Shown one piece after another: positions 30,634 to 41,167 of a stretch of 64,000 nt of DNA. The notes below the pieces were generated by a model. It did no database searches and was not told the DNA's origin. It worked only from the letters and a program-made list of their open reading frames with translations. Position numbers and translations under genes: made by a program. Source of the stretch: Clostridiales bacterium (GTDB lineage: Bacteria; Bacillota; Clostridia; Oscillospirales; Acutalibacteraceae). The stretch lies in contig DULI01000007.1 in NCBI GenBank assembly GCA_012840445.1, positions 310,001 to 374,000 on the forward strand. Reading direction: 5' to 3'. Within the stretch, counting starts at the first letter, position 1; each line of letters starts with the position of its first letter.

Positions 30634-33600
30634 TTGAAACCTATGTTAAGACTCAAAGCCATGTGTCTAGTATTGGCCTTTGTTATGATATTTGTGTCCT
30701 TGCCGATGGTGGTATTGTCCGCAGACAATAACTACAAAAACGGTCTTTGGGGCGAATACTACAACGGCGAAAAATTTGATACCTATGTGACTGCCAGAAC
30801 CGACAGTAGTATTAACTTCAGTTGGAGTGGCACAGCACCGGCACCCGGAGTCAATACCGAGCACTTCTCGATACGCTGGATAGGACAGATATTTGCCGAG
30901 TCCACAGATACATATACTTTCTACACCAGCACAGACGACGGTGTTAAACTTAAAATTAACGGCAAATATTTGATAATAGATAAAGGCCCCCATGGTCCAG
31001 AGGAGCGAAAAGGCACCATTGACCTGGAAGGCGGAAAGTATTACGAACTGGAAATTGAATATTATAACAGCTATGGCGGCGGCGAGATTAAACTGTACTG
31101 GCAAAGCCCGACTTTTGGGAAGCAAATCGTCCCTGCGCAATCGCTTTTCGCCCCAAAATATAAAGTAGATGTGACACTTGAATCGGGTTCCGATTACCAG
31201 ACCGCAAGGGCAAAGATGTTCTGTAATGAAAATATTGATGCAAAATTGGTCATGAAAAAATACGATCTTTACGGCAATCTGGTCGACAATTTTGAAAGCA
31301 ACAGAAACGGCCAATATTTATGGGAGGTCACCGACACCTTGGGGGATGAAAAGAATTTTTATTATTCCGCCTATGTTGTCGACAACGCCACAAATGAGGT
31401 AATATCAGAGGAAATAACAAAACAATTTGGCGTTGATTACACAGTAGACATTGATATCGACAATGTTTTGGGCGAGGTTTCACCTTATTTGTACGGCGCA
31501 TGTATAGAAGACGTTAACCATGAGCTGTATGGCGGAATCTGGGCACAGATGATCTTTGGCGAAAACTTTGCAGAGCCCGGCACGTTCGACGTAGATGGCG
31601 TGTCCATATACGGTGGCGATTGGACAACATCCGCCAGCGGGAATGACACTCAGATAAATGTACGTAGGGTAGATAACGGTCCTAAGCTTGTTTTTGATAA
31701 TCTTACCTGTACAACCGGCGAGGTTTCACTTGATGTTAAGGTTAGCGGCGACGGGCCTGCAGGACTTATTGTAAAGGTTTCTGACGCCGGAATGGGTGCC
31801 GATTCATTTAACGGCTATGAAATCGGCGTTATGAATAATGTGTTAAGGCTTGCAAAACACCAGCAAAATTACACAAATATAAGAGATGTACAATGCAACG
31901 CCCCGCTTAATACCTGGGTTAACCTGAAAGTACAAATGACCTCTGACAATTTAAAGATATACATAAATAATCAACTTATTACCGAATACACCGACCCCGC
32001 TCCCTTAACATCTGGCGCAATAGGTCTTCGCGCCTGGAATTGCGACGCAAGCTTTAAGAATATTAAATTTGGCAAAGACGTTAGCACCCCCACACTTATT
32101 GAAATGCCCAATTTCAGCAGCAAAGCCGTTAGCGGCATGTGGAGATCGGTAAAACGTGGCAACGCGGTAGGTGAATATAATTTTAATACCACTGACCCGT
32201 TTATTGGTTCAAAAAGCCAGGTTATATGTTTTACATCGGGTACGGGAGCTATTGGCATAAACAACATGGGGTTAAACCGCAAGGGCATGAATTTTGAAAA
32301 GGACAAGGATTACAACGGCTATTTCTATGCTAAGAGCCAGCAGGAAACACCCGTTTTCCTTGTATTTGAAAGCGCCAACGGGCAAACACAGTATTGCGAG
32401 ACCGAGGTATTAGTAAGCGGCAATGAATGGACCAAATATTCTTTTGAGCTGACTCCCAACGCCAAAGACGCGGCCGGCAGGTTTACAATAGAATTAAGAG
32501 CGCCCGGCAGTGTCGAAATCGGATATGTGTACCTGCAACCCGGCGAATGGGGCCTTTATAAAGGGCTGCCCTTCCGCCGCGATGTATGCGAAGCACTTGA
32601 AAACCAGGAACTCACAGTACTGCGTTTTGGAGGTTCCATGATTAACAACAACGGGTACATGTGGAAACGAATGCTGGGAGCGCCTGAATTTCGCGAAAAC
32701 TATTCAGGTCACTGGTATCCCTATTCTTCATTCGGGTTTGGAATCTTTGAATTCCTTCAATTGTGCGACTCGTTGGGAATCCTCGGCATTCCCGCGTTAA
32801 ACAGCTATGAATCCCCACAGGACGTGGCCGACTTTATAGATTTTGCCACCGGCACCGACCGGTCTAACCCATGGGTTCAAAAGCGCATAGAAATGGGCCA
32901 TCCCGAACCCTTTGATCTGCCTTATCTGCAGATTGGCAACGAGGAACGCATAGACCAAAACTTTGCCGCAAGGTTTAACAACATCGCAAGCTATGTATGG
33001 GCAAAGGATGAGAATATTATACTGGTAGCAGGTGACTTTGATTATAAAGAGATCATCAGAGATCCTTACAACTTCTCCGGTGCTGCCAGCGGTATTACCA
33101 CCCTGGCAGGGCACAAGCTAATCCTCGACCATGCTACCCAAAACGGCCGGGAAGTCTGGTTAGATATCCACTTCTGGACCAACAACCAGTTTGAAGCTAT
33201 GAATTTCTTTGACGCAGGTGTCAGTTTGTACAATGCCCTTAAAACCATTTGCCCCGATGCCAAGTTTAAGCTTGCGGTATTCGAGCTCAATTCCCACCAC
33301 CATATATTTGAAAGGGCGCTTGCTAACGCATATTGCATTAACCGCTCCGAAAGGCTGAGCGATATGTTTGCGGTTATGTGCTCGGCCAACTGCCTACAGG
33401 TAGACGGCCACAACGATAACGGCTGGGACCAGGGATTGGTATTCATGAATAATGACTCGGTATGGTATCAACCTCCGGCATACATTACCAAAATGTCATC
33501 AAGCGTTTACCAGCCCTATACGGTTGATGCGGTTCTGTCCGAGCAGGTTTTAGGGCTGGATGTAACCGCTACCAAGAGCGAGAATGGCAAAACCGTTGTT

Positions 33601-34047
33601 GCCAAAATCGTTAATGTGCAGGATAATAGCTGCAAAATTAAGCTGAATATCCCAGGGCTAGCCTCAGAATATGTCGACGCTAGAATTATCAGCTATGCAG
33701 ACGAACTGTCAGCGCGTAACACTTCGAAAAACCCGCAGAACAGCAAACCGAAAGACGAAATTGTAATCCGAAATGCATTAAATAACGGCAGCATGACATA
33801 CGAACTGCCTGCCAATTCCTACACCACAATCGTGCTTACGGTTTCCGAATTAACCCGCAAACCCGGCGACATAAACGGTGACGATAAAGTCACAGTTGTC
33901 GACATAGTCGCGCTTAGAGGCATTATTATGAACGAAACGGAATTAGACCCGGATACCTTCAGGATAGCCGACTTGAATGAAGACGGCTATATCTCGGTAA
34001 CCGATATCATCGCACTGCGCAGAATAATAATGTCACAAACCGACTAA
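30634..34047 (+). CDS. Secreted GH51-like alpha-L-arabinofuranosidase with PA14 and dockerin
   Basis: 1137 residues. A signal peptide (1 to about 29) is followed by a PA14 domain (about 35-175: GLWGEYYNGEKF, YTFYTSTDDGVKLKING). A linker leads to a GH51-type start, SPYLYGACIEDVNHELYGG (about 285-305). A LamG/DUF1080-like module (about 325-485) interrupts the barrel, which then resumes; likely acid/base E770 is in QIGNEERID and likely nucleophile E884 in VFELNSHHH. A type I dockerin ends the protein ([35 protein letters not shown]). Start TTG 30634 with GGAAGGGGG upstream. It should remove arabinose side chains from plant polysaccharide; the GH51 call is by motif only. Confidence 0.82.
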   Translation: MKPMLRLKAMCLVLAFVMIFVSLPMVVLSADNNYKNGLWGEYYNGEKFDTYVTARTDSSINFSWSGTAPAPGVNTEHFSIRWIGQIFAESTDTYTFYTSTDDGVKLKINGKYLIIDKGPHGPEERKGTIDLEGGKYYELEIEYYNSYGGGEIKLYWQSPTFGKQIVPAQSLFAPKYKVDVTLESGSDYQTARAKMFCNENIDAKLVMKKYDLYGNLVDNFESNRNGQYLWEVTDTLGDEKNFYYSAYVVDNATNEVISEEITKQFGVDYTVDIDIDNVLGEVSPYLYGACIEDVNHELYGGIWAQMIFGENFAEPGTFDVDGVSIYGGDWTTSASGNDTQINVRRVDNGPKLVFDNLTCTTGEVSLDVKVSGDGPAGLIVKVSDAGMGADSFNGYEIGVMNNVLRLAKHQQNYTNIRDVQCNAPLNTWVNLKVQMTSDNLKIYINNQLITEYTDPAPLTSGAIGLRAWNCDASFKNIKFGKDVSTPTLIEMPNFSSKAVSGMWRSVKRGNAVGEYNFNTTDPFIGSKSQVICFTSGTGAIGINNMGLNRKGMNFEKDKDYNGYFYAKSQQETPVFLVFESANGQTQYCETEVLVSGNEWTKYSFELTPNAKDAAGRFTIELRAPGSVEIGYVYLQPGEWGLYKGLPFRRDVCEALENQELTVLRFGGSMINNNGYMWKRMLGAPEFRENYSGHWYPYSSFGFGIFEFLQLCDSLGILGIPALNSYESPQDVADFIDFATGTDRSNPWVQKRIEMGHPEPFDLPYLQIGNEERIDQNFAARFNNIASYVWAKDENIILVAGDFDYKEIIRDPYNFSGAASGITTLAGHKLILDHATQNGREVWLDIHFWTNNQFEAMNFFDAGVSLYNALKTICPDAKFKLAVFELNSHHHIFERALANAYCINRSERLSDMFAVMCSANCLQVDGHNDNGWDQGLVFMNNDSVWYQPPAYITKMSSSVYQPYTVDAVLSEQVLGLDVTATKSENGKTVVAKIVNVQDNSCKIKLNIPGLASEYVDARIISYADELSARNTSKNPQNSKPKDEIVIRNALNNGSMTYELPANSYTTIVLTVSELTRKPGDINGDDKVTVVDIVALRGIIMNETELDPDTFRIADLNEDGYISVTDIIALRRIIMSQTD

Positions 34048-34060
34048 TCCAATCCAAATT

Positions 34061-34092
34061 AAAAGGGGAGATTTCAATCTCCCCTTTTTAAT
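34061..34092. terminator. Bidirectional terminator
   Basis: AAAAGGGGAGAT (34061-34072) and ATCTCCCCTTTT (34077-34088) with A/T-rich flanks, between the GH51-like gene and the convergent ABC-F gene. Confidence 0.88.
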
Positions 34093-34093
34093 T

Positions 34094-35635
34094 TTATACT
34101 TTTACTCGGGTTTCCAGAAGCCCGTTTTCAGTAAGTTCATAAATTTTGCTGCAAACCTGCGTAATATATTTCCTGTCATGCGACACGCTAATAATGCAGC
34201 CTTTAAAAGATCTTAAAATGTCGCGTATTACCGGGTTAGAAAGTGGCGAAAAGTTGCGGGTAGGCTCATCAAGAATTAATACATTGCTGTTTTGCAGTAT
34301 CATCTTAATGAATAAAAGCTTTGCCTTTTGCCCGCCAGAAAGTTCAGATATCGGATGCTCCATTTCATCAGCGGTGTATTTCACGCTTCCAAGAAGTGTG
34401 CGCACGCGGGTTATATCTCCCTTATCACCAGAAGGGGCCAAAAACTCCACCGGCGTTTTGGATAAATTGAGCATTTCCTCGTAGTTTTGGGGCATATAAG
34501 CTGCATTAATGTCCTTGCGCGCAAGCAGCATATCCGCAATTAGTTTTAACAGTGTGGTCTTGCCCGATCCATTTTCGCCGACAATGCAGACTTTTTCAGG
34601 GCCGGTAATATTAAGGCTTATGTTATTAGCAAGTATCCTTTCCCCCATTTGCAATTTGTCTATTTCAAGTTCCAAAACGGTCTTCCCGTTGGGTATAAAT
34701 ATGCCCTCGTTAAATTTCAGCATTATCTCTTCTTCCACATCGGGAATTTGGGTAATGTTTTCCTTTTCTTTCTCGAGCCTGCGGCCTAAAGATTTTACCG
34801 ATTTCATTTTCTTTTTAAGAAGTCGCCCGCCTGATGGGTTTGAGCGGGATATGGTGTTTTGTTCATGTTCAACCTGCTGGAATATACGCCGGTATTTCTC
34901 CATCTTTTTTTCAAACTCGCTTCTTTCCTTGCGGGCGATTTGCTCCTGATGCTCCAATTTCGACTGCCTTTGTTCAACATAATCACGGTACCCCATTTGG
35001 GCTACTGTATGGCGCGGCATAGTTTTTCGGCGCACCAGTTCCAGATGTATAATCGTATTGGCTGTGCGTTCTAATAGGGTTTCGTCGTGGGACACAAACA
35101 AAACCGGCTGCTCGCATGAATTAATAAATCTTTCTAGCCATTCCAGCGTATTAATATCTATGTCATTCGAGGGCTCGTCAAGCAGCAGGATGTCAGGGTT
35201 ATTCATTAATATACTGCTAAACTGCAGTTTCACCTTTTCTCCGCCTGAAAGCGTCCCAACAATCTGGTCGGAATAAAAAATATCGCAAGGCAGGCCCAAC
35301 CAGTAAGCAATATTCGCCAGCTCTTTTGGGGTGATGTCGAAAAAATGCGGGTTATTACTGCAAAACTCGTAAACCGTTTTCGCATTGTCATCCTGCGGCA
35401 GTTCCTGAGCAAGATATCCTAATTTTAAATTATTCTTAATTATATCGCCGGTATATTCAATATAGCCTTCAACAAGCTTTGCATCGTATATTAGTTTGAG
35501 CAGCGTCGATTTTCCGTTGCCTTCTTCACCAATTATTGCCGCCTTGTCGCCTTTATTTAAATTAAATGAAAGGTCTTTTATTAAAACTCTAAGGTCTTTC
35601 TTATGAGTAAGCGTAAGATTCCTGATTTGTAGCAT
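34094..35635 (-). CDS. ABC-F ATPase, probable antibiotic-resistance (ribosome protection) type
   Basis: 513 residues, two ABC domains and no membrane helices. Domain 1 has GEEGNGKST, LSGGE and LLLDEPSNDIDI. Domain 2 has GENGSGKTT, LSGGQKAKLL and LILDEPTRNFSP (unusual in place of TNHLD). Between them is a charged coiled-coil linker (about 190-300), the part that reaches into the ribosome in ARE-ABCF proteins. Such proteins dislodge drugs such as lincosamides, pleuromutilins or streptogramins. ATG 35635 has GGAGG 5 nt upstream; the upstream in-frame ATG (35647) overlaps that site. The attenuator leader supports a drug-inducible resistance role, but specificity cannot be read. Confidence 0.87.
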   Translation of the reverse strand: MLQIRNLTLTHKKDLRVLIKDLSFNLNKGDKAAIIGEEGNGKSTLLKLIYDAKLVEGYIEYTGDIIKNNLKLGYLAQELPQDDNAKTVYEFCSNNPHFFDITPKELANIAYWLGLPCDIFYSDQIVGTLSGGEKVKLQFSSILMNNPDILLLDEPSNDIDINTLEWLERFINSCEQPVLFVSHDETLLERTANTIIHLELVRRKTMPRHTVAQMGYRDYVEQRQSKLEHQEQIARKERSEFEKKMEKYRRIFQQVEHEQNTISRSNPSGGRLLKKKMKSVKSLGRRLEKEKENITQIPDVEEEIMLKFNEGIFIPNGKTVLELEIDKLQMGERILANNISLNITGPEKVCIVGENGSGKTTLLKLIADMLLARKDINAAYMPQNYEEMLNLSKTPVEFLAPSGDKGDITRVRTLLGSVKYTADEMEHPISELSGGQKAKLLFIKMILQNSNVLILDEPTRNFSPLSNPVIRDILRSFKGCIISVSHDRKYITQVCSKIYELTENGLLETRVKV

Positions 35636-35647
35636 AAAAACCTCCAT

Positions 35648-35835
35648 AAAAAAAGCTGCTTCCGGTAACCGAAAGCAGACAAATACGAAATCAGACCTAA
35701 TTTTAGGTGAAATATATCGTATTATAATCTATTTTCGGTTACAGAAACCAAGCCCACTGTTTTGTGGGATTAAATAATTTCTGTAGCTTTGAAAATAGAT
35801 TATATTAACACCTTTTCACCCATTTCTCTGTTGTT
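35648..35835 (-). promoter_or_regulatory. Transcription attenuator leader of the ABC-F gene
   Basis: In minus-strand order the leader holds three parts. First is a 7-codon uORF. Second is a long hairpin: ATAATCTATTTTC (35803-35791) with GAAAATAGATTAT (35736-35724), plus TACAGAAA/TTTCTGTA and a CCCAC/GTGGG tip. Third is a terminator, CTGCTTTCGG-TTA-CCGGAAGCAG plus seven T (35678-35648), directly before the coding region. GTAACCGAAA (35742-35733) is perfectly complementary to TTTCGGTTAC (35674-35665) of the terminator, forming an antiterminator when the long hairpin is blocked. Confidence 0.8.
35800..35823 (-). CDS. Candidate leader peptide MGEKVLI of the ABC-F attenuator
   Basis: ATG-GGT-GAA-AAG-GTG-TTA-ATA-TAA, seven residues, starting about 13 nt into the predicted transcript. 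Its last codons and stop lie inside the 5' arm of the long leader hairpin, so a ribosome stalled here would free the antiterminator. The ribosome site is weak (AGAG), which lowers confidence. Confidence 0.55.
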   Translation of the reverse strand: MGEKVLI

Positions 35836-35841
35836 AATTTT

Positions 35842-35870
35842 ATTATAAATGTGTCTATCTTAACTGTCAA
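35842..35870 (-). promoter_or_regulatory. Consensus promoter of the ABC-F leader
   Basis: On the minus strand TTGACA (35870-35865), 17-bp spacer, TATAAT (35847-35842). Both hexamers are perfect. The start is expected near 35835. The -35 lies just beyond the flavodoxin stop codon. Confidence 0.88.
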
Positions 35871-36484: not shown

Positions 36485-36513
36485 TTGACATAATCTAGAA
36501 AATGATTTATACT
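36485..36513 (+). promoter_or_regulatory. Promoter of the zinc operon
   Basis: TTGACA (36485-36490), 17-bp spacer, TATACT (36508-36513). Expected start near 36520, inside the operator that follows. Confidence 0.8.
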
Positions 36514-36536
36514 AATTTGCAAATAATTTGCAAATT
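36514..36536 (+). promoter_or_regulatory. Candidate Fur/Zur-type operator
   Basis: AATTTGCAAAT occurs twice in tandem, giving a near-palindromic 22-bp site directly after the -10 and over the expected transcription start. Its place before a Fur-family gene and a zinc importer suggests autoregulation by metal-loaded repressor. Confidence 0.6.
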
Positions 36537-36549
36537 CGGAGGAATTAAT

Positions 36550-36939
36550 TTGTCCAGTTATGTAACCGAGCAGAGAAAACGGATTTTAGAGATACTAAAA
36601 AACAGCTCTGAACGGCTTTTCACGGTTGAAGAGCTGGCAGAAATGCTAAGTTGCGAGGGCATTAGCCTTAGCACGGTTTACAGGACGATTAACCGGCTGT
36701 ACAGCAAGGGGCTTGTCCGCAGGACCGCCATTGACGGCAGCCGCAAGTTCGCATATCAGTATATAGATGACGAGCACTGCACAGAACACCTGCATTTAAG
36801 CTGTACGCAGTGCGGCAAAATTTTTCACCTTGAAAACGACATCTCAAGCAATCTAATAAAACAAATCCAGCAAAAAAACAACTTTTTAATAGATAACAGC
36901 AAAACTCTGCTGCGCGGCATCTGTGACAGGTGCAAGTAA
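36550..36939 (+). CDS. zur: Fur-family regulator, probable zinc sensor Zur
   Basis: 129 residues: an N-terminal winged helix (TVEELAEMLSCEGISLSTVY then RTINRL), the metal-sensing HLHLSCTQCGK block, and paired cysteines C-x2-C twice (CTQC and CDRC) for the structural zinc. Fur paralogues cannot be told apart safely by eye, but the co-directional znuACB genes point to Zur. The start is TTG 36550 with CGGAGGAA 6 nt upstream. First gene of the operon. Confidence 0.87.
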   Translation: MSSYVTEQRKRILEILKNSSERLFTVEELAEMLSCEGISLSTVYRTINRLYSKGLVRRTAIDGSRKFAYQYIDDEHCTEHLHLSCTQCGKIFHLENDISSNLIKQIQQKNNFLIDNSKTLLRGICDRCK

Positions 36940-36961: not shown

Positions 36962-37924
36962 ATGAGAAAACTGATTATTTCTTTTTTGGTTGCTATAGCG
37001 GTTTTAAGCACAGTATTTATTCCCGGTTGCAGCGGGAATACAGCAAAAGACGGTCTTAATATTGTCTGCACGCTGTTTCCCCAGTATGATTTTGTGCGCG
37101 CGATTTTGGGAGATAAGATTAACGATGTAGCCGTTACCTACCTGCTGGATGACGGATCGGATATTCACAACTACAAAAACAACATTACCGCAGCAGATAA
37201 AATCACCATCATCTCCAGCGATTTATTAATTTTCGTAGGTGGTGAGTCCGACCGCTGGATTGAGCAACTGCTTGAAGATCCAAGCCGCAACCCGGACCTT
37301 ATTGCCATCCCGATGTTGGATATAATCAACAACCCTAAATTGGAGGAGGACAACCACGAAGAAATTGGCTATCAGGAACACGAGGAAACCTATGATGAAC
37401 ATGTGTGGCTTTCTGTAAAGAATTCAATTGAAATATGCAACGCAATCTGCGATGCTTTTGTATCCCTCGACCCCGAAAACGCTGATATTTACCGCCATAA
37501 TGTCAAAAATTATGTAAACCAACTTGAGGCGTTGGACAATGAGTACAAAGAAATGGTGGAAAGTTCAAAACGCCGTGTTGTCGTGTTTGCCGACCGGTAC
37601 CCCTTTCGTTATTTAATGGAAGACTACTCAATTACCTGTTACGCCGCCCTGCCCGGCTGCTCTACCGAGACAGATGCCAAATATGAAAACATAATCGCAT
37701 TATCCAAGGTTATAGACGAATACGATATTCCTTATCTGCTAACCCTTGAAAACTCCAAAATAAACATAGCCGACCAGGTAATTAATAACAGTAAGAAAAG
37801 ACCGGTAAAAATCGGAGTATTGAATTCGCTTCAATCTGTTACAAGCAAGGAAATTGAGGCGGGGATTTCTTACCTTTCGGTCATGCGGCAGAACCTTGAA
37901 GTATTAAAAGGAGCCTTGAACTGA
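36962..37924 (+). CDS. znuA: Zinc ABC transporter substrate-binding lipoprotein ZnuA
   Basis: 320 residues. Signal peptide with lipobox FIPGC (lipidated Cys about residue 25), then a cluster-9 fold: CTLFPQYDFVRAI, DIHNYKN with a metal His, a His/Glu-rich loop (NHEEIGYQEHEETYDEH) leading to VWLS, and VVVFADRYPFRYL. It captures zinc (possibly manganese) outside the membrane. ATG 36962 follows GAGG. Starts 22 bp after zur. Confidence 0.9.
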   Translation: MRKLIISFLVAIAVLSTVFIPGCSGNTAKDGLNIVCTLFPQYDFVRAILGDKINDVAVTYLLDDGSDIHNYKNNITAADKITIISSDLLIFVGGESDRWIEQLLEDPSRNPDLIAIPMLDIINNPKLEEDNHEEIGYQEHEETYDEHVWLSVKNSIEICNAICDAFVSLDPENADIYRHNVKNYVNQLEALDNEYKEMVESSKRRVVVFADRYPFRYLMEDYSITCYAALPGCSTETDAKYENIIALSKVIDEYDIPYLLTLENSKINIADQVINNSKKRPVKIGVLNSLQSVTSKEIEAGISYLSVMRQNLEVLKGALN

Positions 37925-37925
37925 T

Positions 37926-38633
37926 ATGGCGCTTATTACATGTAAAGATTTATGCCTTGCGTATGACGGCAAAATTGTTTTAAACAATCTTAATTTCCAT
38001 GTAAATTCGGGTGATTACCTTTGCATTGTGGGCGAAAACGGCTCGGGTAAAACCACGCTCATGCACGCGCTATTGGGTCTTAAATCCCCATTGCACGGCG
38101 AGGTGCTGTTTGAGGAGGGCTTAAACCTTAAGGATATTGGCTATCTTCCGCAACAGACAATAGTGCAAAGGGATTTCCCGGCTTCGGTGCGCGAGGTGGT
38201 GCTCTCTGGGTGCCTTAACCGTTTAGGATTTTTTCCATTCTATAGCAGAACAGAAAAACAAATAGCCAAAACTAATATGGACAGATTGGGTATAGCAAGC
38301 CTTGCAAACCGGTGCTACCGCGAATTATCTGGCGGTCAGCAGCAAAGGGTACTACTGGCTAGGGCTTTGTGTTCTGCCAAGCGCCTGCTGCTACTTGATG
38401 AGCCTGCCTCGGGGCTTGACCCCAGGATGACTCAGGAGATGTATTCGTTAATATCCGAACTTAATCAAAAGGACCAAATCACAATAATCATGATTTCACA
38501 CGATATCGCTGCGGCGGTAAAATACGCTTCAAACATACTTCATTTAGGCAAACAGCTTTTTTTCGGCAGCACTAAAGAGTATATGGAATCTGGCATCGGC
38601 AGGGCATATTCAGGTAACGGAGGATGCGCATGA
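37926..38633 (+). CDS. znuC: Zinc ABC transporter ATP-binding protein ZnuC
   Basis: 235 residues: Walker A GENGSGKTT, Q-loop YLPQQT, signature LSGGQQQRVLLARAL, Walker B LLLLDEPASGLD, H-loop MISHD. It energises uptake with ZnuB. It starts 1 nt after the znuA stop, with GGAG upstream, and its TGA overlaps the znuB ATG. Confidence 0.93.
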   Translation: MALITCKDLCLAYDGKIVLNNLNFHVNSGDYLCIVGENGSGKTTLMHALLGLKSPLHGEVLFEEGLNLKDIGYLPQQTIVQRDFPASVREVVLSGCLNRLGFFPFYSRTEKQIAKTNMDRLGIASLANRCYRELSGGQQQRVLLARALCSAKRLLLLDEPASGLDPRMTQEMYSLISELNQKDQITIIMISHDIAAAVKYASNILHLGKQLFFGSTKEYMESGIGRAYSGNGGCA

Positions 38634-39490
38634 ACGAATATATAAGCACTCTATCAGAATATCTGTCATATCCGTTTGTGCGCTATTCAATAATAGTTGG
38701 GGCACTAATTTCCTTATGCGCTTCGCTATTGGGCGTGCCGCTAGTACTCAAACGCTATTCAATGATCGGAGACGGGCTGTCCCACGTGGCTTTCGGAGCG
38801 GTGGCGGTAGCCGCGGTTACGCGTCTTACCAGCAGCATGCTGGTTGTCCTGCCCGTTACAGTAATAGCGGCAGTGCTAATCCTTAAAACCAGCCAAAACG
38901 CCAAAATTAAGGGCGACGCGGTAATTGCCATGATTTCGGTTGGCTCGCTGGCCGTAGGATACTTACTGCTTAATAAATTTTCTAGTTCTGCCAATGTCAG
39001 CGGAGATGTGTGCAGCACTTTGTTTGGCTCTATGTCGATACTGAACCTATCCGTAAATGATGTATGGCTGTGCCTTGGACTTTCGGTTTTGGTAATAGCC
39101 ATTTTTATCTTGTTCTACAACAAAATTTTTGCCGTTACATTTGATGAAAACTTTGCAAGTGCCACGGGTACCAAATCGGGTATGTATAACCTGATGATTG
39201 CCGTAATAACAGCGGTGGTCATTGTGCTTGCAATGAACCTTGTGGGCGCGCTGCTAATCTCGGCGTTGATTATCTTTCCTTCCCTGTCGTCTATGAGGGT
39301 ATTTAAAAGTTTTCGCTCGGTTATTATAAGCTCCGCAGTGATTGCGGTAAGCTGCGCCATCATAGGCATACTTATATCAATTCTGTGGAGTACGCCCGTC
39401 GGTTCAACCATTGTAGCTGTCAATATTGTTATATTTTGTTTGTTTTATGTTGCCGGACTTTTGCCAAACTTTAAAGGTCATTTACATTAA
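38630..39490 (+). CDS. znuB: Zinc ABC transporter permease ZnuB
   Basis: 286 residues, eight or nine membrane helices, ABC-3 permease family (SMIGDGLSHVAFGAVAVAAV, LVGALLISALIIFPSL). ATG 38630 is chosen because GGAGG lies 6 nt upstream and the codon overlaps the znuC stop (ATGA); an in-frame ATG at 38624 would overlap that site. Confidence 0.93.
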   Translation: MNEYISTLSEYLSYPFVRYSIIVGALISLCASLLGVPLVLKRYSMIGDGLSHVAFGAVAVAAVTRLTSSMLVVLPVTVIAAVLILKTSQNAKIKGDAVIAMISVGSLAVGYLLLNKFSSSANVSGDVCSTLFGSMSILNLSVNDVWLCLGLSVLVIAIFILFYNKIFAVTFDENFASATGTKSGMYNLMIAVITAVVIVLAMNLVGALLISALIIFPSLSSMRVFKSFRSVIISSAVIAVSCAIIGILISILWSTPVGSTIVAVNIVIFCLFYVAGLLPNFKGHLH

Positions 39491-39511
39491 AATCTTGCAG
39501 GAGTGAGAGCT

Positions 39512-41167
39512 ATGAGGGCTTTAATTATCGGCGGGGTAGCCGGTGGCGCTACCGCCGCCGCACGGTTGAGAAGGCTTGACGAGCATGCCGAGATTATCAT
39601 ATTTGAGCGCGGGGAACATATCTCCTTTGCCAACTGCGGCTTGCCTTATTATGTTGGCGATATAATTACAGACAAGCAGTCACTACTGCTCCAATCCCCA
39701 GAAGGGTTTGGCAGGCGTTTTAATATTGATGTGCGGGTTTTAAGCGAGGTTATCTCAATCGATCGGGAGAATAAAACGGTCACTGTAAAAGACACAAAAA
39801 CCAAAAACACATATACAGAAAGTTATGATAAATTAATAATTTCTACAGGTGCAGAGCCCATAAGACCGGCTATCAAGGGTATCGATACTGACGGTATTTT
39901 CACCTTGAGGAATGTGTCCGACACGCTGGAAATAAAAAACTTTATACAAAACAAAAAGCCCACAAGCGCTGTGGTTGTGGGCGGAGGCTATATTGGTGTT
40001 GAAATGGCCGAAAATCTTGCACTTGCGGGGCTTAAAGTAAGCCTTATAGAGCTGTCTGACCATCTAATAGCGCCGCTGGATTTCGAAATGGCAGTGCATG
40101 TGCATGATTATATAGAATCCAAAGGAATAAAGCTATATTTAAACAGCGGGGTTCGGGAAATTTCCGAAAACGGCGGCAAATTTACCGTTTCACTCGATGA
40201 TACCAAAATTGATTGCGATATGGTAATTCTCTCAGTCGGTGTTTCCCCGGACACAAAGCTTGCAAGGGACTGCGGGCTTAAAGTTAACGAGCGCGGGGCT
40301 ATAATAGTTAATCCTAACATGCTCACATCTGACCAAAACATATACGCTGTCGGAGACGCGGTAGAGGCAGTTGATTTTGTAACCAGGCGCCCCGCATATG
40401 TACCGCTGGCAGGGCCGGCAAACAAGCAGGGGCGCATTGCGGCCGACAATATCTGTGGAATAGCCAGCAGCTATACGGGCACCCAGGGCTCTTCTATTCT
40501 AAAACTCTTTGACATGACCATTGCCAAAACTGGTATAAACGAAGCATTCGCAAAACTGTGCGAATTTGATTACGACAAAGTATATTTGTATTCAAACTCT
40601 CATGCAGATTACTACCCCGGTGCAACCACAATGGTTATTAAAGTAATTTTCGAAAAGCCAACCGGCAAAATTTTAGGCGCGCAGCTTATAGGTTTTGACG
40701 GGGTAGACAAGCGCTGCGATGTTCTGGCTACTGTAATACGCCTTGGCGGCACTGCCCACGACCTGACTCAACTTGAGCTCTGCTACGCTCCGCCATTTGG
40801 CTCGGCCAAAGACCCGGTGAATATGGCAGGGTATGTAATCGAAAATATACTGACGAATAAAGTAAAAAACTTTCACTGGCACGATATTGAAAAACTGCCC
40901 AAAGACGGCAGCGTAACCCTGCTTGATACCAGGACACGCTTTGAATACAACAAAGGCCACATTGAAGGGTTTATAAACATCCCGCTCGATGAGTTAAGGG
41001 ACAGAATAAACGAACTGGACAAATCCAAACCGGTATACGTCCATTGTTTAAGCGGATATAGAAGTTATATCGCCTGCAGGATTTTAGAAGGCCACGGGTT
41101 TGAAACCTACAACCTAAGCGGGGGTTACAGGCTTTATCATACGGTTATGAAACATAAAAACAGATAA
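39512..41167 (+). CDS. cdr: CoA-disulfide reductase with C-terminal rhodanese domain
   Basis: 551 residues. FAD domain (IIGGVAGGATAAARLRRLDE), single redox Cys42 in SFANCGLPYY, NAD(P)H motif VVGGGYIGVEMAENL, and the second FAD block IYAVGDAVE; a rhodanese domain from about 465 has active-site Cys in VHCLSGYRSY. Enzymes of this form reduce CoA disulfides, persulfides or polysulfide with NAD(P)H. ATG 39512 follows GGAG by 8 nt. It begins 22 bp after znuB with no terminator between, so it is probably co-transcribed with the zinc genes. Confidence 0.9.
   Translation: MRALIIGGVAGGATAAARLRRLDEHAEIIIFERGEHISFANCGLPYYVGDIITDKQSLLLQSPEGFGRRFNIDVRVLSEVISIDRENKTVTVKDTKTKNTYTESYDKLIISTGAEPIRPAIKGIDTDGIFTLRNVSDTLEIKNFIQNKKPTSAVVVGGGYIGVEMAENLALAGLKVSLIELSDHLIAPLDFEMAVHVHDYIESKGIKLYLNSGVREISENGGKFTVSLDDTKIDCDMVILSVGVSPDTKLARDCGLKVNERGAIIVNPNMLTSDQNIYAVGDAVEAVDFVTRRPAYVPLAGPANKQGRIAADNICGIASSYTGTQGSSILKLFDMTIAKTGINEAFAKLCEFDYDKVYLYSNSHADYYPGATTMVIKVIFEKPTGKILGAQLIGFDGVDKRCDVLATVIRLGGTAHDLTQLELCYAPPFGSAKDPVNMAGYVIENILTNKVKNFHWHDIEKLPKDGSVTLLDTRTRFEYNKGHIEGFINIPLDELRDRINELDKSKPVYVHCLSGYRSYIACRILEGHGFETYNLSGGYRLYHTVMKHKNR

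Follow-up and report, generated by a model that had tools for sequence, protein, structure and literature searches.

The ABC-F gene in the window (the whole stretch of 64,000 nucleotides analyzed, from a Clostridiales bacterium) is preceded by a leader that is read, with a probability of about 0.8, as a ribosome-mediated transcription attenuator similar to those of vmlR, cplR and vgaL; it would make a target-protection-type ABC-F inducible. A previous sequence-only reading of this DNA had proposed attenuation controlled by a seven-codon uORF. Transcription attenuation under uORF control is strongly supported by the folding of the leader under a ribosome footprint, by the architecture kept across the family and by the match to characterized systems, but the sensor is very probably a nested three-codon uORF starting with GTG (MLI) and not the seven-codon ATG ORF. 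The elements, their mutually exclusive pairings, the dependence on the footprint and the conservation were all established by computation. All of the attenuator elements and the ABC-F gene lie on the minus strand of the window.

The perfect promoter of that reading was recovered by a consensus scan, as a -35 element TTGACA (35865-35870) and a -10 element TATAAT (35842-35847) separated by a 17-nt spacer. This sigma-70 promoter (35870-35842) matches the consensus at 12 of 12 positions and is the sole such site in 4.5 kb. From the promoter spacing, transcription would start near 35835, and the leader between promoter and gene measures about 185-200 nt. Folding of the 189-nt leader gave -59.2 kcal/mol, compared with -32.9 (sd 3.7) for shuffled sequences (z -7.1). 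No Rfam matches were obtained in this leader or in the leaders of 19 relatives, and a search for a second copy elsewhere in the genome returned only short chance matches. The alignment with relatives places the start of the ABC-F ATPase (513 aa, 34094-35635) at ATG 35635, with the protein N-terminus MLQIRNLT..., preceded by the Shine-Dalgarno GGAGG (35641-35645). The ATG at 35647, given as the start by the ORF finder, overlaps this GGAGG and was discarded in favor of 35635. The seven T of the terminator (35648-35654) are present as described, but the ATG that they abut is not the beginning of the coding region. A bidirectional terminator-like hairpin is also found 3' of the gene (34061-34088).

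Between the promoter and the T tract, a long hairpin (35804-35723) carries the end of the uORF in its 5' arm, as had been noticed before, and corresponds to an anti-antiterminator. Its lower stem pairs 35804-35791 with 35736-35723, and its upper stem pairs 35785-35775 with 35750-35740. The 3' arm contains the antiterminator strand GTAACCGAAA (35742-35733), the 10-nt segment already pointed out for its complementarity to the terminator; its exact reverse complement, TTTCGGTTAC (35674-35665), is located in the 5' arm of the intrinsic terminator hairpin CTGCTTTCGGTTACCGGAAGCAG (35656-35678). The antiterminator pairing GTAACCGAAA:TTTCGGTTAC and the terminator located ahead of the gene are mutually exclusive.

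The seven-codon ORF MGEKVLI does exist (ATGGGTGAAAAGGTGTTAATATAA, 35823-35800), although its ATG is probably not the start of the translated frame. The Shine-Dalgarno pairing of ATG 35823 amounts to 0.1 kcal/mol, that is, it is absent, compared with -10.8 kcal/mol for the in-frame GTG at 35811, which is served by GGGTGA (35816-35821; duplex with the 16S 3' end), a motif kept in the relatives as GGGTGA or AGGTGA. An ultra-short uORF with a Shine-Dalgarno near the 5' end, characteristic of this attenuator class, is therefore present. In the closest relative by identity (L056, 66% identical), the same place carries GGGTGG-aaac-GTG-ATC-ATT-TAA (MII), and in L076 (64% identical) it carries GGGTGA-aaaa-ATG-CGC-AAA-TAA (MRK). 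Both uORFs are followed by TCTRTTTTT, to which the sequence in the window is closely alike (TCTATTTTC). Since these mini-ORFs and the sequence downstream of them align there, the uORF of the window is read as GTG-TTA-ATA-TAA (MLI, 35800-35811), the probable drug sensor.

The effect of a ribosome on the window leader was modeled by keeping bases unpaired up to a varied end position. The probability of the terminator was 0.99 without a ribosome or with its edge up to +9 of the GTG, and fell to 0.94 at +12, 0.37 at +14 and 0.02 at +16. The antiterminator had a probability of 0.00 without a ribosome or with the edge up to +6, and reached 0.91 at +16, the edge of a ribosome whose P site contains the GTG. 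The 5' arm of the anti-antiterminator thus lies under the stalled ribosome, and the flip takes place between +12 and +16. In RNAs folded before the terminator closes, the footprint raised the probability of the antiterminator from 0.01 to 0.75. The 30S start-codon toeprint on the vmlR uORF lies 16 nt downstream of the start (PMC9226507), and since the switch flips at an edge of +16, a ribosome with the GTG in its P site fits what the switch needs. The same attenuator could be sensed instead through the seven-codon ATG uORF, with a stall at an internal codon, but this is very unlikely. In its favor, that ATG shares the reading frame and lies near the predicted transcription start, and in L076 an in-frame ATG likewise occurs four codons 5' of the uORF (MGEK-MRK); however, only 2 of 46 leaders have an in-frame ATG exactly four codons 5' of the uORF start, and the footprint of a ribosome on ATG 35823 would end at about +4 of the GTG, where the probability of the terminator is still 0.99. 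MGEKVLI was rejected as the sensor on its missing Shine-Dalgarno, its poor conservation and the wrong position of its footprint. Additionally, in the repressed fold the Shine-Dalgarno of the three-codon uORF pairs with a downstream UUUCACC (35814-35822 with 35704-35712), so that transcription past this segment may turn the modeled sensor off.

We infer from these elements a scheme in which the translation of the uORF, the identity of the stalling drugs, termination in vivo and the resistance activity of the protein are all predictions. By default, no ribosome would stay on the three-codon uORF, the long hairpin would form and lock up GTAACCGAAA, and the terminator would end an RNA of about 185 nt just before the ABC-F gene. 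Under induction, a lincosamide, pleuromutilin, streptogramin A or similar drug would halt the ribosome during initiation or immediately afterwards, with its P site on the GTG. The ribosome footprint, extending to about +16, would cover the foot of the long hairpin and free GTAACCGAAA for pairing with TTTCGGTTAC of the terminator, so that RNA polymerase would read through. The ABC-F made in this way would then clear the drug from the ribosome.

ABC-F relatives were gathered from Clostridia and neighboring groups, yielding 60 non-duplicate upstream regions, including that of the window. An ORF of 2-5 codons, preceded by a Shine-Dalgarno and with its stop region opening a stem, was found in 41 of the 60, compared with 3-12 (mean 6.5) in shuffled sequences. 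The peptides of these mini-uORFs include MRK, MNK, MLK, MIL, MII, MLI, MRF, MIIK, MINR and MYRR, among others, and the leaders conserve architecture rather than sequence. The automatic choice of the terminator failed or was weak for L037, L056, L066-L068, L071 and L072, and took the wrong hairpin for L038; for this reason the family test was limited to 36 leaders (window and relatives), with uORFs picked by hand by Shine-Dalgarno and length. In these RNAs, cut before terminator closure, the 5' arm of the terminator paired with upstream RNA at a mean of 0.52 without and 0.76 with stalling, and the change was -0.04 when only the region from uORF to terminator was shuffled. The leaders are individually variable, and a few of the 36 do not switch in the model. 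Among 10 alignable Lachnospiraceae-type leaders, the long hairpin keeps 90.4% standard pairs, with 7 double-changed cells against 3.4 in shuffles and a covariation score reached by 0 of 500. The antiterminator pairing keeps 95.5% standard pairs in the same 10 leaders, with no compensatory (double) changes among them. No comparable leader was found in L002 (60%) and L031 (61%), where the promoter seems to lie directly before the gene.

It is exceedingly improbable that these structures are chance hairpins of an AT-rich intergenic region: terminator-like sites do exceed expectation (11 found, 4.9 expected), but the z score of the leader, the exact 10-nt complementarity, the switching that depends on the ribosome edge and the conservation in the family all speak against it. 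Mainly translational regulation, through a sequestered start region and with the terminator in a minor role, is quite unlikely as well. In cplR both levels of regulation act (PMC10201436), and the upstream region of L056 has no strong terminator, while the Shine-Dalgarno of its gene seems to be enclosed in a hairpin close to a complement of CCGAAAATT, which suggests translational rather than transcriptional attenuation in that relative. By contrast, the terminator of the window is strong, with its seven T, and folding leaves the GGAGG of the gene outside any stable stem.

Transcription attenuation in the window would work as in the known ABC-F leaders, and the importance of the mini-uORF has been demonstrated in vmlR, cplR and are5sc (PMC9226507, PMC10201436, PMC12421871). 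The Bacillus subtilis vmlR leader likewise has a three-codon uORF at the foot of an anti-antiterminator, an antiterminator and an intrinsic terminator; its uORF is MIN (MDN, MDK or MRK in other bacilli), and stalling at initiation induces the gene (PMC9226507). Compared with the window, where the uORF is MLI with a GTG start, the vmlR leader is described with an extra hairpin sequestering the Shine-Dalgarno and with NusG pause sites (PMC9226507). VmlR itself belongs to ARE2 and was 26% identical to the ABC-F of the window in the fold match. The Clostridioides cplR leader, induced by lincomycin and retapamulin, shares the three-codon uORF (MR[I/M] in Clostridia) and a terminator just before the gene (PMC10201436). 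However, its terminator stem sequesters the Shine-Dalgarno of the gene, which that of the window does not, and CplR is an ARE1 protein in a separate clade of the tree. The Streptomyces are5sc and tiaA leaders also combine an ultra-short uORF with a terminator and antiterminator, but encode ARE5 proteins of Actinobacteria; in are5sc the uORF is MLV with a TTG start, and LSAP drugs stall the ribosome at the start codon (PMC12421871). Mini-uORFs of the same sort precede lsaA (MAGN) and vmlR2 (MK[L/Q]).

The protein contains two ABC domains in one chain (two Pfam ABC_tran stretches), joined by an extended linker of the ARE1-5 type, and its arm region is short. The linker measures 168 aa, compared with 169 in VgaA and LsaE, 172 in MsrA and 166-167 in CplR-like proteins; the housekeeping ABC-Fs of the relatives mostly have 141-150 aa, and one (L008) reads 208. 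All 62 members of the family carry a DEPTRN[FL]SPLS-type motif in the second ATPase domain, replacing the usual NHLD-type D-loop. The AF2 model (pLDDT 92) matched best the ribosome-bound PoxtA, VmlR2 and Sal(B), followed by the translation factor EttA. The protein also passes NCBIfam NF000355 (387 bits, cut-off 380), which was rejected as proof of resistance function, since 8 of 14 control genomes also have a hit above the cut-off of this model. Inducible target protection against drugs of the peptidyl-transferase center is likely and is the best reading, at the level of prediction. Because of the long linker, the short arm and the attenuator, the protein may reasonably be regarded as a putative inducible resistance factor. 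Against this stand an identity to known resistance ABC-Fs of only about 22-28%, a clade of its own and a fold that also matches EttA.

In the IQ-TREE analysis, the family of the window grouped into a clade with 100/100 support and a long branch, separate from VgaA, MsrA, CplR-like proteins, OptrA and PoxtA, in a sample without VmlR and Sal; LsaE joined it through a flagged long branch. The protein is thus outside every ARE subfamily sampled in this tree. A close plasmid relative was not found among the 60 listed of 4949 matching plasmid records (all <60%), where identity was at most about 35%, or about 30% for full-length proteins. The subfamily, a deep branch across Clostridia, is apparently unstudied. 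FAF1, FAF2 and SAF1, compared here by description only, are likewise Firmicutes-only ABC-F subfamilies of unstudied function, with a role in resistance predicted for FAF1-2 (Murina et al. 2019; PMC6723617).

YfmR-type ABC-Fs are general ribosome-rescue factors. An attenuator sensing general translation stress, with the ABC-F of the window as a general rescue factor and not a drug-resistance protein, is rather unlikely. A search for other ABC-Fs (Uup, YdiF or EttA type) in the 1.88-Mb genome (99.99% complete) found none, and as the sole ABC-F found there the protein could have a general rescue role. Its clade is its own, unlike those of the characterized resistance ABC-Fs, and the uORF peptides vary (MLI, MII, MRK, MIL, MNK, MINR), from which it would follow that sensing is not residue-specific. 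On the other hand, the long linker and short arm are those of resistance ABC-Fs, the family is patchily present (31 of the 295 genomes sampled from the order), and the leaders of resistance ABC-Fs are typified by ultra-short uORFs. An ABC-F of about 640 aa was found in most of the relatives searched. For the Clostridia subfamily as a whole, defined by DEPTRN[FL]SPLS and a conserved linker tip, an inducible ribosome-protection or rescue system is proposed only tentatively.

The switch type is already known, and the interest lies mainly in the apparently unstudied subfamily. This chromosomal family, widespread in gut-type Clostridia, would provide probable inducible protection against peptidyl-transferase drugs; if so, the intrinsic tolerance of such commensals to lincosamides and pleuromutilins would be inducible, and searches by gene name would overlook it. 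With their variety, the three- and four-codon uORFs are a ready means of testing context effects when drugs stall translation early. If the subfamily reading holds, the conserved ultra-short uORFs, among them MRK, MLI, MIL, MNK and MxxR, would form a natural library of first-codon drug stalling.

Several other features were observed around the gene. A large secreted PA14/alpha-L-arabinofuranosidase protein with a dockerin domain (30634-34047) suggests a cellulosome-type or fiber-degrading gut bacterium as the host. A FUR-family regulator gene (36502-36939) is followed by a zinc-type ABC importer with a ZnuA-like lipoprotein, an ATPase and a permease (36962-39490), and because of this zinc uptake operon it is likely a zinc regulator. 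Ahead of it, an inverted repeat (77%) containing tandem TAATTTGCAAA lies across the promoter TTGACA-17-TATACT (36485-36551) and is a probable autoregulatory operator. Finally, a CoA-disulfide-reductase-like flavoprotein is encoded at 39503-41167, with a C-terminal extension that appears rhodanese-like by eye.
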